Shown here: positions 2,148 to 7,388 of the stretch, piece after piece | How the letters are laid out: the number at the start of each line of letters is the position of its first letter | How positions within the stretch are numbered: the first letter of the stretch is position 1 | Source: a bacterium | GTDB taxonomy: Bacteria; NPL-UPA2; JAGMAN01 | Length of the DNA: 7,491 bases | Assembly (NCBI GenBank): GCA_023130215.1 | Contig: JAGMAN010000098.1 | Coordinates: 1-7,491 of the forward strand | Direction of reading: 5' to 3' | The notes under the pieces: generated by a model | Database searches by the model: none | What the model was told of the DNA's origin: nothing | The model's input: only the letters and a program-made list of their open reading frames with translations | Position numbers and translations under genes: made by a program

Positions 2148-2320
2148 ATTTCTGCCTCTAATATAGCATATACTCCTTTCATCTCCAAGACTTCTTTTGC
2201 TAAAACCTTTCCTTCTATGTCAACTAAAACTACTTTAGAAAGTGTCAAAGCAGGAAAGTTACAAGCTCCTACCATTTTGGCAAGACTGGGAACAATGCAA
2301 TCAGGGCAACGGTGAAAACA
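2144..2320 (-). pseudogene. 3' remnant of a gene preceding the aldolase gene
   Basis: An open frame of 58 codons ends in TGA at 2146-2144, overlapping the aldolase ATG by four bases, the normal junction for co-translated operon genes. The peptide begins CFHRCPDC, continues through IVPSLAKMVG and ends YAILEAEI. The composition (Val/Leu/Lys-rich with VVLVDIEGKV) looks coded. Reading upstream, a TGA at 2323-2321 closes the frame, and no start codon with a ribosome binding site is present. The only ATG (2275-2273) would give 43 aa and lacks a Shine-Dalgarno sequence. I read it as the tail of a longer gene cut away when the cassette array arrived. The CX3CX2C spacing resembles an iron-sulfur or radical-SAM cluster motif, but the family is not recognised. 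Confidence 0.5.
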
Positions 2321-2368
2321 TCAAGTTGGATTGGAACCGAACTGAGAAGGTGTTTTACAATTGCTCTC

Positions 2369-2425
2369 TCCTAACACTGGAACTCACCCGCCAAAAAGCG
2401 CCAGCTTTTTGATCGGGTGTTAGGC
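2369..2425 (-). repeat. Irregular attC-like recombination site ending cassette 2; possible terminator hairpin
   Basis: In the gene direction the site begins GCCTAAC (2425-2419) and ends GTTAGGA (2375-2369), matching R''/R' cores except for the final base. The R boxes are complementary over six pairs. Between them lie nested stems ACCCG/CGGGT (2386-2390 with 2414-2418) and AAAAAGC/GCTTTTT (2393-2399 with 2404-2410) around a GCCA loop. The left side has ten extra bases (2376-2385) with no counterpart, so the geometry is not canonical. An alternative R'' at TGATAAC (2433-2427) would be more symmetric. The stop codon of the 73-aa gene lies inside the site, as is common in cassettes. The GC-tipped hairpin with its T run could also terminate transcription. 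Confidence 0.55.
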
Positions 2426-2641
2426 CGTTATCAGTTCCAACTTTTCTTTCGTGGCAGAGGGTAATCGTAAAGGAGCAAAATAGTCTGCCGGATATAGATA
2501 ATCCTCGCCAGATTCATCTATGACCCTCATCTGATGATGTCTCTCAGCTCCTTTATCAGCCAACACCTCGTATATCTTTCTCATCTCCAATGATGCTTTG
2601 TAGCCACGATTATCAACACATAGCATAAAATGTTTTTCCAT
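2420..2641 (-). CDS. Small hypothetical protein, second gene of cassette 2
   Basis: This is a 73-aa acidic-to-neutral soluble protein with no signal peptide or membrane segment. The N-terminal part reads MLCVDNRGY followed by LEMRKIYEVL (about residues 19-28). The centre has the distinctive run RVIDESGEDYLYPADYF (39-55), then a proline/leucine stretch and a short C-terminal helix ending LELITA. I recall similar small proteins with a Lys-Ile-Tyr-x-Val-Leu strand and an ESGEDYLYP block in diverse bacteria, without a named function; I did not verify this. The ribosome binding site is AGGAGG at 2652-2647, five bases before the ATG. The upstream 76-aa gene ends 11 nt before this ATG, so the two form a unit. 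Its TAA lies inside the attC-like site. A toxin-antitoxin role is possible but unproven. Confidence 0.72.
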   Translation of the reverse strand: MEKHFMLCVDNRGYKASLEMRKIYEVLADKGAERHHQMRVIDESGEDYLYPADYFAPLRLPSATKEKLELITA

Positions 2642-2652
2642 TGCTGCCTCCT

Positions 2653-2883
2653 CTATAGGTATCTTTTAATCTTCAATTCTTTCTTCCCTATACCATAACC
2701 TTCATACCAATGCAGTTCCGCTTCAATAAGTGTACCATCTTCCAGTTCTACTTGGCAAATCCCCTTTAATTTCCGCCATTTTGTTCGCCCGTAAATCTTG
2801 TTCAATCGATTTAGATTCTTTATTCCATGCCCGACGGCAATAGTTTCAACCTCCCGAGCCTTTCCTTTTACTTTGAAATGCAT
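2653..2883 (-). CDS. Small basic hypothetical protein, first gene of cassette 2
   Basis: This is a 76-aa lysine/arginine-rich protein. Its segments are FKVKGKAREVETIAVG (3-18), a helix-like LNRLNKIYG (24-32), then WRKLKGICQVELEDGTLIEA (36-55) and ELHWYEGYGIGKKELKIKRYL (56-76). The pattern suggests a small beta-barrel or beta-hairpin fold that may bind nucleic acid or a partner, but I do not recognise a named family. The ATG at 2883 directly follows AAAGG, which leaves almost no spacing for that Shine-Dalgarno sequence, so initiation is unusual. A six-codon frame (ATG at 2907-2905, TAA at 2889-2887) ends just before it. The gene is paired with the 73-aa gene downstream, which points to a two-component module such as toxin-antitoxin. 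That last point is inference. Confidence 0.72.
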   Translation of the reverse strand: MHFKVKGKAREVETIAVGHGIKNLNRLNKIYGRTKWRKLKGICQVELEDGTLIEAELHWYEGYGIGKKELKIKRYL

Positions 2884-2921
2884 CCTTTAAATCTTACCTT
2901 TTTCCATGAATTATTTAATCG

Positions 2922-2994
2922 GCCTAACGATCAAGCTCACTGGATTTCACGGAGCAGCAGCGGAGTGAAATTCCAGTGGAGCGCCTTGTTATGC
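2922..2994 (-). repeat. attC recombination site of cassette 1, canonical architecture
   Basis: Read in gene direction, the 73-bp site starts with R'' GCATAAC (2994-2988) and ends with R' GTTAGGC (2928-2922). Between them are two imperfectly paired spacers of five and six bases and a long stem. On the plus strand, 2935-2938 pairs with 2979-2982, 2939-2943 with 2973-2977, and 2944-2950 with 2965-2971, giving 16 pairs. Exactly two bases, T2972 and G2978, are left extrahelical on the right arm. A T and a G bulged in the bottom strand are hallmarks of attC sites and set strand choice by integron integrases. The plus strand is the expected bottom strand for minus-strand cassette genes. The tip (2951-2964) is largely unpaired. 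Confidence 0.87.
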
Positions 2995-3361
2995 ACTACT
3001 CCTCAAAAACCTCCTCGGCCAGATCAAAACTCGGAGTATGAACCAAAAGCAACTTGGCGACTGCTACAGTTTTATTTTCGTAGCTAAACCGCGCTCCCCG
3101 GCGAATGATACACGCGTCACCAGTAGAAAGGTCTACAACCTGATTATCAACGATGAAACTAAGTCTGCCGTCGATGACATAGTAGTACTTGTCCGATCTC
3201 TTGGACCACGCTCGTTTGTGTCGAGTACCCGCAGGAACCGTGATCTCTGCCATGGATGAGCTGCCATCCCTCTCGGCGGTATAATCGCGTATTTCAAGAC
3301 CACCGAATTCAACCACCTTCAAGGATTCACGTCCTATCTTCATATTCATTCCTGTGCATAA
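2928..3361 (-). mobile_element. Integron-type gene cassette 1 (cupin)
   Basis: This 434-bp unit starts TTATGC at 3361, just after the G of the core site at 3362-3356, and ends at the G of the attC R' box at 2928. It holds a single gene that begins 18 nt in, and its stop codon is one base from the attC R'' box. That is the typical compact one-gene cassette. It is first in the array, next to the promoter at 3425-3454, and so the best placed for expression. Confidence 0.7.
2996..3343 (-). CDS. Single-domain cupin protein with incomplete metal-binding motifs
   Basis: This is a cupin-fold beta-barrel protein of 115 aa counted from the ATG at 3343, chosen because AGGA lies six bases upstream. An ATG at 3349 and a TTG at 3364 are in frame but poorer. 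Motif 1 is visible as VPAGTRHKRAWSKRSDKYY with VIDG (about 36-59), and motif 2 as GDACIIRRGARFSYEN (75-90). In metal cupins motif 1 has HxH plus a Glu and motif 2 a His. Here only His42 is clear, Lys/Arg/Asp occupy other positions, and Phe86 replaces the motif 2 His, so a normal metal centre is unlikely. The protein may bind a small ligand or a sugar derivative, or be a sensor. No signal peptide is seen. It is the sole gene of cassette 1 and its TAG lies one base from the attC. Confidence 0.85.
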   Translation of the reverse strand: MKIGRESLKVVEFGGLEIRDYTAERDGSSSMAEITVPAGTRHKRAWSKRSDKYYYVIDGRLSFIVDNQVVDLSTGDACIIRRGARFSYENKTVAVAKLLLVHTPSFDLAEEVFEE

Positions 3362-3362
3362 C
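3356..3362 (-). other. Upstream core recombination site at the head of the cassette array (attI or relic attC boundary)
   Basis: GTTATGC on the minus strand is identical to the reverse complement of the R'' box of the attC at 2922-2994 and fits a GTT-type core site. It marks the 5' limit of cassette 1. The 60 nt upstream show no paired stem like an attC. A second GTTAGAA lies at 3402-3396, which loosely recalls the repeated core-like sequences of attI sites. No integrase gene is adjacent, so attI identity is tentative. Confidence 0.5.
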
Positions 3363-3424
3363 AATTAATATACACAATGCATTTTTCTGAGTGTCTTCTA
3401 ACTATTTCAGTTAAAGCTATGGCA

Positions 3425-3454
3425 ACTGTAGCATATTCTCACCCTTTTTGTCAA
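3425..3454 (-). promoter_or_regulatory. Sigma70-type promoter reading into the cassette array
   Basis: On the minus strand TTGACA (3454-3449) is a perfect -35 box, followed after 18 nt by TACAGT (3430-3425), which matches four of six bases of TATAAT. Transcription would start near 3418 and enter cassette 1 about 55 nt later. The position corresponds to the cassette promoter (Pc) of an integron platform. It is the only strong promoter I see upstream of the cassettes and of the left operon. Confidence 0.55.
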
Positions 3455-3954
3455 TAAAAAAACATAAAAATGTTGGAAATGGGAAGAGACATCGTAACCC
3501 TCCTCTGGGGTTGAAGAAGTTAGTTTGTTTTGGGGAAAGAACTTGGATTAGACTTGAGGAAGTTGTAAAGAAGCCTCGTTTACAGCGTGAGCAGTACTGC
3601 AGCGAAGCAGCACTGCCTCTGGCGGTGTTTCACCGTAAAGAAAAAAGTGGTACGCGGCGCAAAAAAGAAAAAGCGGCTGGTAACGATAGAGCAAACAAGA
3701 GAAGTCCAGGCAGGGAAATCAAGGTTGTGGATTTTTCATTAGATGGCATAAGGGTAAGGAAATGGTGGGAGAAAGAGAATTGGGCAATGGTAACTGATCC
3801 TGAGAATCCTTTTGGAGACTTAACAAGAGAACAGAAGCTTAGAGTTACAGAGCTCCTCAAAGGGAGGGGTATAAAGGTATTAGAAAATGCCTCCAGGGCT
3901 AAATTGGAGGCACTCTTAAAACAAAAAAGTGGACACATGGGCCTAAAAGGCTAA
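3448..3954 (+). CDS. Hypothetical basic protein, start uncertain
   Basis: An open frame of up to 168 codons runs on the plus strand, opposite to all other genes. The C-terminal half looks coded: KVVDFSLDGIRVRKWW, then VTDPENPFGDLTREQKL (about 116-132) and helices VTELLKGRGIKVL and RAKLEALLKQK, a helix-turn-helix or SAP-like pattern. The middle (about 66-88) is a low-complexity Lys/Arg/Glu stretch. The N-terminal part is doubtful. The TTG at 3448 has no ribosome binding site and overlaps the -35 box of the opposite promoter, and TTG at 3508 or GTG near 3724 are alternatives. It could be a 5'-broken gene. I do not recognise a family. It converges on the DUF4432 gene, and its hairpin-rich segment (3591-3635) is odd for coding DNA. 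Confidence 0.4.
   Translation: MSIKKHKNVGNGKRHRNPPLGLKKLVCFGERTWIRLEEVVKKPRLQREQYCSEAALPLAVFHRKEKSGTRRKKEKAAGNDRANKRSPGREIKVVDFSLDGIRVRKWWEKENWAMVTDPENPFGDLTREQKLRVTELLKGRGIKVLENASRAKLEALLKQKSGHMGLKG
3591..3635. repeat. Two tandem hairpins inside the plus-strand open frame
   Basis: GCAGTACTGC (3591-3600) pairs with GCAGCACTGC (3607-3616), nine of ten pairs around a six-base loop AGCGAA. Six bases later CGGTG (3623-3627) pairs perfectly with CACCG (3631-3635) around TTT. The block is GC-rich in an otherwise AT-rich stretch. It may be a small inserted palindromic element, an RNA structure, or chance. No copies occur elsewhere in the window. Confidence 0.4.
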
Positions 3955-4147: not shown

Positions 4148-5326
4148 TTATCTCTTGAATGCATCATTTATTGCTTCTTCTAACTTTATCACTCTTTCTC
4201 CATCCAGAGCACCTATTTCTACTGTCCTTGATATTTTCTGCCCCGGGGATAAAACCCTTAACTCCTCCCTCTTATTGTTCCGGTCATCAGGGAATGAGTT
4301 AGCTGGCTCAATGGCGGCTGTATACCATATTGGTTCATCCTGATTTCCGTCAAATTGCCATCCTCCATACTGCTGCCATAATGTCACTTTACTATAATCG
4401 GATATTCTATGGGCAACAAAACCACCCAGTGACCTGTCCCCCGTCATCATCATCTGAACGGTAACATCAGATTCCCCCTCGCAGGATGAGGAGATACCAT
4501 CAACTGCTCCCTTAATTGGCTTGGGTTCAATAAAATAACACCTTTCCTGGAAAAACTCAGCTGTTGGTGCTGGAACCTCCAAGGCTTCTTTTAGATATTT
4601 TTTTGCTTCTTCGTCCCTTGCCTTTAGTTCTCCGCTACAGACATACCTTGACCCTTCCCATAGAAGGTCGCTACCAAACTGTATGTGGTGGCCATCGTCA
4701 AAAATTTGAGGTCTTTTAGAAATATTATCAGTAGTATCCGCTCTTAAAAGGGAATTACGCATATAACCTGTGCTAATCTCTGTAGTCCGTCTAAATTGGG
4801 CTTCTCCTTTATACAGGACGGGAACCATACCAGCCACTTCTATTTTTGAACTTTCAATCTCAATAAGAATACTATCCATATCTGTCAGGGAATAGGAGTT
4901 CCTATCGTGTAAAGTCAGTTTTTCTCCCGTTTGTTCATCAACACAAGGTGCACCAAAATGTTTGGGGCCAACCATTGTATCCATAGCATAAAATCCTCTT
5001 AGCCATCCTAATCCCTCAACGTTTTCTCCATTAACATGCACAAAGGCTTCCTGCAAATTAACATTTTCTGGATGTAAAAGAAAAGAGAGCTCTCTTCTCC
5101 ACCCGATTTTTTTGTTCTTATACCACATATTTCCAATGTCCATTCCCCTCTGAAATAAGATTGTGTATTGTAGGAAGCCATTATTTACTGTTAGAATATC
5201 CATTGATGACCCAAACGGGTCATTAACAAAAGTCCTATATAGGAACCCTGTTTGAGGTGCTTTATCATTTAGCTCCTTTAGATTTGTTCTGCCTTGTTTT
5301 AATTCTTTATATGCTATCTGAGCCAT
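4148..5326 (-). CDS. DUF4432 / aldose-1-epimerase-like protein
   Basis: This is a 392-aa cytoplasmic protein of the galactose-mutarotase-like beta-sandwich superfamily, DUF4432 type. Family landmarks are the FQRGMDIG strand (58-65), GWLRGF (107-112), the LTLHDRNS segment (137-144) where relatives have LHGR, the GHHIQFGSDLLWEG region (212-225) where relatives have a YHxNxG motif, and the C-terminal AAIEPANSFPDDR (337-349) with LSPGQK (359-364), matching the EPxTNxP and PGE region. Such proteins are thought to bind or epimerise sugars, often in carbohydrate catabolism operons, and the substrate here is unknown. The ATG is seven bases after AGGAGG (AAAGGAGG). It lies 48 nt after cobD in the same direction and may be transcribed with it, although a role in cobalamin synthesis is not expected. 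Confidence 0.85.
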   Translation of the reverse strand: MAQIAYKELKQGRTNLKELNDKAPQTGFLYRTFVNDPFGSSMDILTVNNGFLQYTILFQRGMDIGNMWYKNKKIGWRRELSFLLHPENVNLQEAFVHVNGENVEGLGWLRGFYAMDTMVGPKHFGAPCVDEQTGEKLTLHDRNSYSLTDMDSILIEIESSKIEVAGMVPVLYKGEAQFRRTTEISTGYMRNSLLRADTTDNISKRPQIFDDGHHIQFGSDLLWEGSRYVCSGELKARDEEAKKYLKEALEVPAPTAEFFQERCYFIEPKPIKGAVDGISSSCEGESDVTVQMMMTGDRSLGGFVAHRISDYSKVTLWQQYGGWQFDGNQDEPIWYTAAIEPANSFPDDRNNKREELRVLSPGQKISRTVEIGALDGERVIKLEEAINDAFKR

Positions 5327-6452: not shown

Positions 6453-7388
6453 TCAAACCACCATCAAGATTAATCTCAAGGTAACACCCAGAATAACCAT
6501 TAAGAAGGAAGTTAGATACATCAATTGAGTGGCTTCTCTTATATGATGCCGTGAAATTTCCTCTTCTGAATTGCCTAAGAAGGGCTTTTGAGAAAGTTGA
6601 CCCTGATAATAGCTCATTCCCCCCAACTGGATTCCTAAGGCCCCTGCTACGGCTGCCTCCGGGATGGCGCTATTGGGACTTGGGTGTTTCTCACCATCTC
6701 GCCACCTAATCCGCCAACACTCCTTTGCTCTATTCCTAAGCAGCCAGGCGGCGGCAGGGATGAGCAGCCCAGTTAAGCGGGCGGGAACGAAGTTAGCTAT
6801 ATCATCTAACTTAGCAGAAGCCCAGCCGAAGTCAACATACATCTTATTCTTGTAGCCGACCATGGAATCTAATGTGTTAATTGCCTTATAGGTAAGAGCC
6901 AGGACTGGACCTCCTAATATAAGGTAAAATAAGGGAGCCACTGCCCCATCTACAGTATTCTCAGCCACTGTCTCCACTGTGGCCCGAACGACCTCTTTCT
7001 GAGAGAGATTTTTCGTATCCCTTCCCACTAAATGGGAAAGCTCCCCCCTAGCCTCCCCAAGGTCACTATCATCAAGCGCCTGATAAACTCGCAGAGCTCC
7101 ATCTCTAAGGCTTTTTATGGATAAGGCAAAATAGCCAAGGAGGATAGCAAACAAGGTTCCAAGATGAATGAAATAGGCAATTTTAAGAAAAAGATAGGAG
7201 ACAGCGACAGTTCCTGAAAGGATAATAATGGTCAGGACAATTCCCCCAACCTTTTCATCCCGCAGATGTTTCCTCAGTAATTTTTCAAAGTATTCAATTG
7301 CCTTCCCTATCCCAACCACCGGATGGAGAATCCATTTAGGGTCACCAAAGACAAGATCCAGCAGGTACGACCAGATAAAAGTCAGCAT
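6453..7388 (-). CDS. cbiB: Adenosylcobinamide-phosphate synthase CbiB
   Basis: This is an integral membrane enzyme of 311 aa that joins aminopropanol phosphate to adenosylcobyric acid, giving adenosylcobinamide phosphate. Conserved signatures are DLVFGDPKWILHPV (11-24), HLVGRDTKNLS (119-129), RATVETVAENTVDG (135-148), YKAINTLDSMVGYKN (167-181), DGEKHPSPNSAIPEAA (231-246) and GIQLGGMSYYQG (252-263). Hydrophobic segments near 49-70, 76-90, 150-168, 202-217 and 290-310 fit the family topology. The ATG lies just before the conserved N-terminal motif, and only a weak Shine-Dalgarno sequence is seen (TTTGA). It is the first gene of the cobalamin unit behind a strong promoter, with cobD directly downstream. 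It is complete and without anomalies. Confidence 0.95.
   Translation of the reverse strand: MLTFIWSYLLDLVFGDPKWILHPVVGIGKAIEYFEKLLRKHLRDEKVGGIVLTIIILSGTVAVSYLFLKIAYFIHLGTLFAILLGYFALSIKSLRDGALRVYQALDDSDLGEARGELSHLVGRDTKNLSQKEVVRATVETVAENTVDGAVAPLFYLILGGPVLALTYKAINTLDSMVGYKNKMYVDFGWASAKLDDIANFVPARLTGLLIPAAAWLLRNRAKECWRIRWRDGEKHPSPNSAIPEAAVAGALGIQLGGMSYYQGQLSQKPFLGNSEEEISRHHIREATQLMYLTSFLMVILGVTLRLILMVV

Follow-up and report, generated by a model that had tools for sequence, protein, structure and literature searches.

We find that the DNA described here almost certainly carries, in the chromosome of its host, a small array of two integron cassettes lacking an integrase of its own and joined to an attI-like head. 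Such an array is a CALIN, defined by two or more attC sites spaced by less than 4 kb in the absence of intI (PMC9024848, PMC9668308). The analyzed stretch, called the window throughout, has 7,491 nucleotides and makes up an entire contig (G000:C135) of a 1.01-Mb MAG, fragmented into 136 contigs and 90% complete, from a bacterium of the candidate phylum NPL-UPA2. Nine NPL-UPA2 genomes served for comparison within the phylum. Integron cassettes are now placed in a candidate phylum whose genomes measure only about 1 Mb; a literature search found no paper treating NPL-UPA2 and integrons together, and integrons go unmentioned in the first NPL-UPA2 genome paper. Coordinates of all features are collected in Table 1.

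Table 1. Features of the cassette array and its surroundings (window positions)
Feature	Position	Strand	Remarks
Distal chromosomal flank, kept in sister species	2237..2368	-	blastn 94% to G007 over window 2237-2419
Cassette 2 (two small genes and attC2), core to core	2375..2927	-	start GTTAGGCCG complements R'' CGGCCTAAC, 9/9 nt
attC2, terminal, irregular (R''-L'' spacer missing)	2369..2425	-	R2 29.4 bits, E 2.9e-6; orthologous to terminal attC of G007:C117
o73, 73-aa acidic protein (pI 5.9), immunity/antitoxin candidate	2420..2641	-	SH3-like model; stop codon inside R''
o76, 76-aa basic protein (pI 9.8), toxin candidate	2653..2883	-	related to C-terminal domain of phage MuF proteins
Cassette 1 (cupin gene and attC1), core to core	2928..3361	-	start GTTATGCAC complements R'' GTGCATAAC, 9/9 nt
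attC1	2922..2994	-	canonical attC with extrahelical bases; R2 60.2 bits, E 1.1e-14
Cupin_2 protein, 116 aa	2996..3346	-	PF07883, E 2.9e-11
attI-like head GTATATTAATTG^TTATGC	3356..3373	-	crossover inferred at 3362/3361; motif shared with G000:C84, G007, G005, G004, G003
Promoter-like site, candidate Pc (TTGACA, 18 nt, TACAGT, preceding TG)	3425..3454	-	points into array; 10/12 consensus match

A preliminary description of the window, made from its letters, had claimed three minus-strand core sites, one full attC fold and one irregular fold, and all of these stand. The core sites are GTTATGC (3362-3356), GTTAGGC (2928-2922) and GTTAGGA (2375-2369). With regard to the parts of an attC (R/L stems, spacers, extrahelical bases), attC1 is canonical, and the label of irregular is right for attC2 because its R''-L'' spacer is missing. 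The folding of attC2 is strong (z -4.8); owing to its irregular structure, it may be a poor substrate. The two sites lie 553 nt apart. Both score in a covariance-model search, a check that the same description had proposed; it was run with R2, a model made in this analysis from 15 attC sites that all lie outside the window, on other contigs and in other genomes. On the correct strand of the window R2 matched only these two sites (the opposite strand gives weaker echoes); it recovered four attC at a positive-control locus and found no match in about 90 kb of other housekeeping contigs. An Rfam scan of the window returned sub-threshold chance matches only. The stem of the 15 sites covaries: double-sided changes occur at 14 of its 21 pairs, as good a result being reached in 0 of 500 shuffles. 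Such changes number 48 against 18 in the shuffles, 88% of stem cells are paired against 74%, and shifting the partner by a single column makes the signal collapse.

The R'' box of an integron cassette is complementary to the first bases of that same cassette. Both cassettes of the window follow this rule, each R'' pairing with its own GTTRRRY start over 9/9 nt, after which the pairing ends. Among eight cassettes with both ends identified, positions 5-9 match in 36 of 40 cases, compared with 18.9 when partners are swapped (p 6e-5), and complementarity to the own start ends at position 8 or 9. When 8-mers were tested unselected, 11 of 39 usable attC entries (attC2 being counted under both possible R'' boxes) had their own complement upstream, mostly at cassette distance; swapped partners gave a mean of 1.5 and a maximum of 6. 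For attC2, complementarity to the start favours R'' at 2425-2419, though R2 prefers an alternative R'' at 2433. With the former box the R''-L'' spacer is zero, and the spacer of the sister-species orthologue measures only 2 nt. The genes run in one direction and end at or inside the sites, as had been noted, the cupin stop lying just ahead of R'' and that of the last ORF within R''.

The content of the locus varies between relatives. In a sister species of the same genus (G007:C117), the distal flank and terminal attC are shared (94% over 183 nt, blastn, window 2237-2419) and the dapA-like neighbor is 89% identical. Its upstream cargo is a GNAT gene plus one more ORF; both have an attC behind them, and there is a third attC ahead of the two. 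Since the flank is shared but adjoins different genes, the cargo changed and the surrounding chromosome stayed; gene swapping by this system has occurred in the lineage. The own genome holds at least three further attC-bearing cassette loci (C84, C85, C60). An integron reading would have been called into question, according to the preliminary description, by relatives with the same genes at the same place and no site variation, together with a genome devoid of other attC sites, and the opposite was found on both counts. The comparison concerns the left flank only, because the right one (DUF4432) has no DNA match in either same-genus genome, where CobD was not found either, and the G006 assembly breaks at the array. 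Upstream of the dapA-like gene, both species have a common remnant which by eye resembles the start of a FGGY-type sugar kinase (window 2160-2236; L016 2433-2560).

Across the phylum, attC matches occur in most of the nine genomes, counted with models built in this analysis. Cassette cargo includes a MazF/PemK-like toxin, ParE with its antitoxin, a HicB-like antitoxin, a CopG-type antitoxin and GNAT enzymes. Several details of these arrays are worth recording. In the C84 array (L076, around 4790-4810), the attC of the first cassette is collapsed: just 5 nt separate R'' from R' (GCCTAACAATGCGTTAGGC), which gives the impression of a deleted hairpin. A MITE-like inverted repeat (GAGGCTGTAGAAAAA) lies beside cassette GTT cores in C84 and C60 (L076 3168-3298; L078 about 6200) and is present also in G007:C126.

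The head of the array is not unique to the window. Exact copies of fourteen bases of it, GTATATTAATTGTT, with A as the next base, are found at seven places in five genomes (two each in G000 and G005, one each in G003, G004 and G007), and a variant of the motif is found at G007:C160. With up to two mismatches, the head pattern gives ten matches versus three for the reversed control. Two heads, both in G000 (C135 and C84), lead into attC-verified arrays; several others are near contig ends or before genes without detected attC, and no head motif was found adjoining any intI. The heads of G000:C84 (L193) and G007:C160 (L197) are orthologous and adjoin pcnB. Up to the G of G^TT, these two loci share 95-99% identity over 600 nt; beyond it they are unrelated (45% over the available 51 nt). 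Divergence right after G^TT is the expected trace of different cassettes inserted at attI, and we suggest that the head is a putative working attI. A cassette array of G008:C1 is also near pcnB (protein 57% identical). Where an inward promoter had been claimed at the head, a promoter-like site is present at 3454-3425, but the region holds no more such sites than shuffles do. Promoter-like matches are found upstream of several other heads as well. The head may come with a promoter.

Two further sequences occur close to the head. A palindromic dispersed repeat (GCAGTACTGC...GCAGCACTGC...GTTTCACCGT) at 3580-3639, inside the unexplained ORF 3448-3954, is abundant in G006 and G007; the own genome has a few copies. 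The stretch 3467-3577 has matches of 73-83% identity in G003, G004 and G007, the last being intergenic (G007:C163).

No tyrosine recombinase gene was found in the window, in keeping with the first reading of its letters, and tblastn with the IntI of G003 revealed no relict of intI there. In the rest of the own genome, searched for intI as had been advised, recombinases amount to two Xer-type (XerC/XerD-like) genes and a few small fragments, none of them over the TIGR02249 cut-off. With no integrase in the element or elsewhere in this 90% complete genome, we do not class the array as a complete integron. The only intact IntI among the nine phylum genomes is that of G003 (410 aa, 409 bits; L019, G003:C41, 10926-12158). 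It has an N-terminal extension of roughly 95 residues, and an attC-like element with a cassette-like gene lies just past the 3' end of its gene, not at the 5' end. In G004:C13 (L087, 8402-8596, minus strand; 7316-7385), an IntI relict of 65 C-terminal residues, 89% identical to the IntI of G003, is located about 1 kb from an attC. Loss of an integrase with cassettes left behind is therefore observed in the phylum. The preliminary description had left it open whether the array is a detached cluster or one whose integrase was lost. We favor integrase loss or action in trans, because the phylum has both an intact intI and a truncated one beside cassettes, and the array keeps its attI-like head.

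How probable are other explanations of the array? It might be a complete integron whose intI sits on an unassembled piece or on another contig of the same cell. The array does possess an attI-like head, MAG contigs break at or near arrays (G006:C15, G007:C117, G007:C160, G007:C111), and intI could be missing from the own assembly because that is fragmented and 90% complete. Against this, the head side of the window continues for 4 kb into the DUF4432 gene and cobalamin genes without intI, and no intI over the cut-off was found in three genomes of the genus (90, 81 and 69% complete) or in two of the same order (93 and 94%). The chance of missing the gene in all three genus genomes is about 0.6% if each has one and the losses are independent, an independence which fragmented assemblies weaken. 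We consider this explanation unlikely. Far less probable is that the mobile modules were moved at dif-like heads by host XerC/XerD, in the manner of pdif modules, instead of by IntI. XerC/XerD-like genes are present and intI is absent in the own genome, and the head (ACTTCGTATAT-TAATTG-TTRTGC) loosely resembles the left arm and center of dif; yet the phylum has an IntI and a relict of one, and attC sites form the module ends, whereas pdif modules have no attC but dif-like XerC/XerD sites at both ends. A search with the dif pattern was no richer than its reversed control, and the dif-like reading of the head was dropped. The poorest candidate, which we regard as extremely improbable, is that dispersed palindromic repeats or terminators flank small genes by chance and are not integron sites at all. 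The attC2 core CAAAAAGC-TGGC-GCTTTTTG is repeated in several genomes, and the repeat at 3580-3639 is a truly dispersed palindrome. Chance flanking is contradicted by complementarity of R'' to its own cassette start, by stem covariation, in which structure is conserved over sequence, and by the different genes between the sites of the sister species. Nor was a terminator-like site found in the region, and the gene pair of cassette 2 forms a cassette also in intI-bearing genomes (G094, and G069 with a partial intI).

The integrase-less cassette array, our preferred reading, would work like other integron cassettes, as far as sequence can tell. Each cassette is a promoterless gene unit with an attC at its end. 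The bottom strand of attC would fold into a hairpin, as in known integrons; an integrase would cut the site and link it to G^TT of the head or of another attC. Cassettes would come and go as circles. Those in the window were presumably placed by an IntI that has since been lost from the lineage or that acted in trans from another cell.

Both cargo units had been described as of unknown function. One of them encodes a cupin, and the second is a mobile module of two genes, related to C-terminal domains of phage MuF proteins. The o76-o73 tandem pair exists also in bacterial genomes of other families, and in G094 and G069, genomes of two other families, attC sites flank it on both sides. Two integron integrases of G094 are over the cut-off, and G069 has a partial match (238.7 bits). 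Plasmids were considered as carriers of the cargo and rejected, as they gave just one o76 match (Thiodictyon plasmid, 55%) and one weak cupin match. In phage contigs of IMG/VR, MuF-type proteins end in the o76 domain, with 1-12 residues left after it; PF04233 (Phage_Mu_F) was detected in three of them (L122, L124, L133). Directly after the o76 domain, several phages have an ORF with the DESGEDY motif of o73. The phages L122, L124, L133 and L168-L188 show an uncharacterized C-terminal domain family of MuF/portal-MuF proteins that is homologous to o76 and often followed by the DESGEDY SH3-like ORF. A search of a phage collection with the phage-type o76 domain gave no match. The AF2 model of o76 (pLDDT 95) consists of a helix and a four-strand sheet, and that of o73 is SH3-like. 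No significant PDB match emerged from the structure search with o76: the best VIA hit (nickase 7jta, Z 4.9) is tied with unrelated folds, and RelE/colicin-type (BECR) folds are absent among the matches listed. By sequence, neither protein matched a solved structure significantly. No named family in Pfam, NCBIfam, PHROG or PADLOC corresponds to o76, and searches with o73 gave only weak matches to PHROGs of unknown function.

Temperate phages have a polymorphic toxin family, the MuF proteins, whose genes are followed by a small ORF for immunity (Jamet et al. 2017, PMC5576092). The position of o76 as the last domain of MuF-type proteins, with an o73-like ORF next to it in several phages, reproduces this layout, and other cassettes of the phylum bear toxin-antitoxin genes. 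Cassette 2 is thus probably a toxin-immunity or toxin-antitoxin-type pair. That it is instead a housekeeping or structural pair we regard as quite possible, if somewhat doubtful: proteins of cassette 2 match no known toxin family, fold comparisons of o76 are weak, and o73-like SH3 proteins exist also in phages without a detected o76 partner. The cargo pair would connect C-terminal domains of phage MuF proteins with addiction-type modules on cassettes.

We tentatively propose a more general picture, in which the phylum would possess a distributed integron system. Each genome would have several short arrays, all preceded by a separate copy of a conserved promoter-plus-attI platform (GTATATTAATTG^TT) without an adjoining integrase, and a rare or lost integrase would serve them from a distance; o76-o73 would represent a new toxin-immunity family common to cassettes and phage MuF proteins. 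Because the attI-like heads are repeated, it becomes testable whether one integrase can serve many platforms in trans. Moreover, since the phylum offers an integrase that is intact, another that is decayed, and arrays without any, a single lineage allows study of how an integron becomes a CALIN.

Several known systems invite comparison. Sedentary chromosomal integrons of Vibrio carry toxin-antitoxin cassettes and have attC that are related within a lineage. NPL-UPA2 cassettes share both properties; they differ in forming several small scattered arrays and not one long array, and, in the genome studied here, in having no integrase. The MuF polymorphic toxins (PMC5576092) resemble cassette 2 in that Phage_Mu_F proteins end with the o76 domain and a small ORF comes next, whereas the cassette o76, a candidate toxin, stands alone without the MuF delivery part. 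In archaea, integrons and attC clusters of uncultured lineages, mostly CALINs, were described from MAGs (Ghaly et al. 2022, PMC9668308). The array presented here likewise belongs to an uncultured lineage, but to a bacterial candidate phylum with a typical attC family of its own (core CACTGCACCYGACCAAAAAGC) and with heads common to several genomes. Finally, it agrees with CALINs (PMC9024848) in its attC sites spaced by less than 4 kb, its cassettes of one direction and the absence of intI, and it departs from them by retaining an attI-like head and a candidate promoter, which recur before other genes of the phylum.
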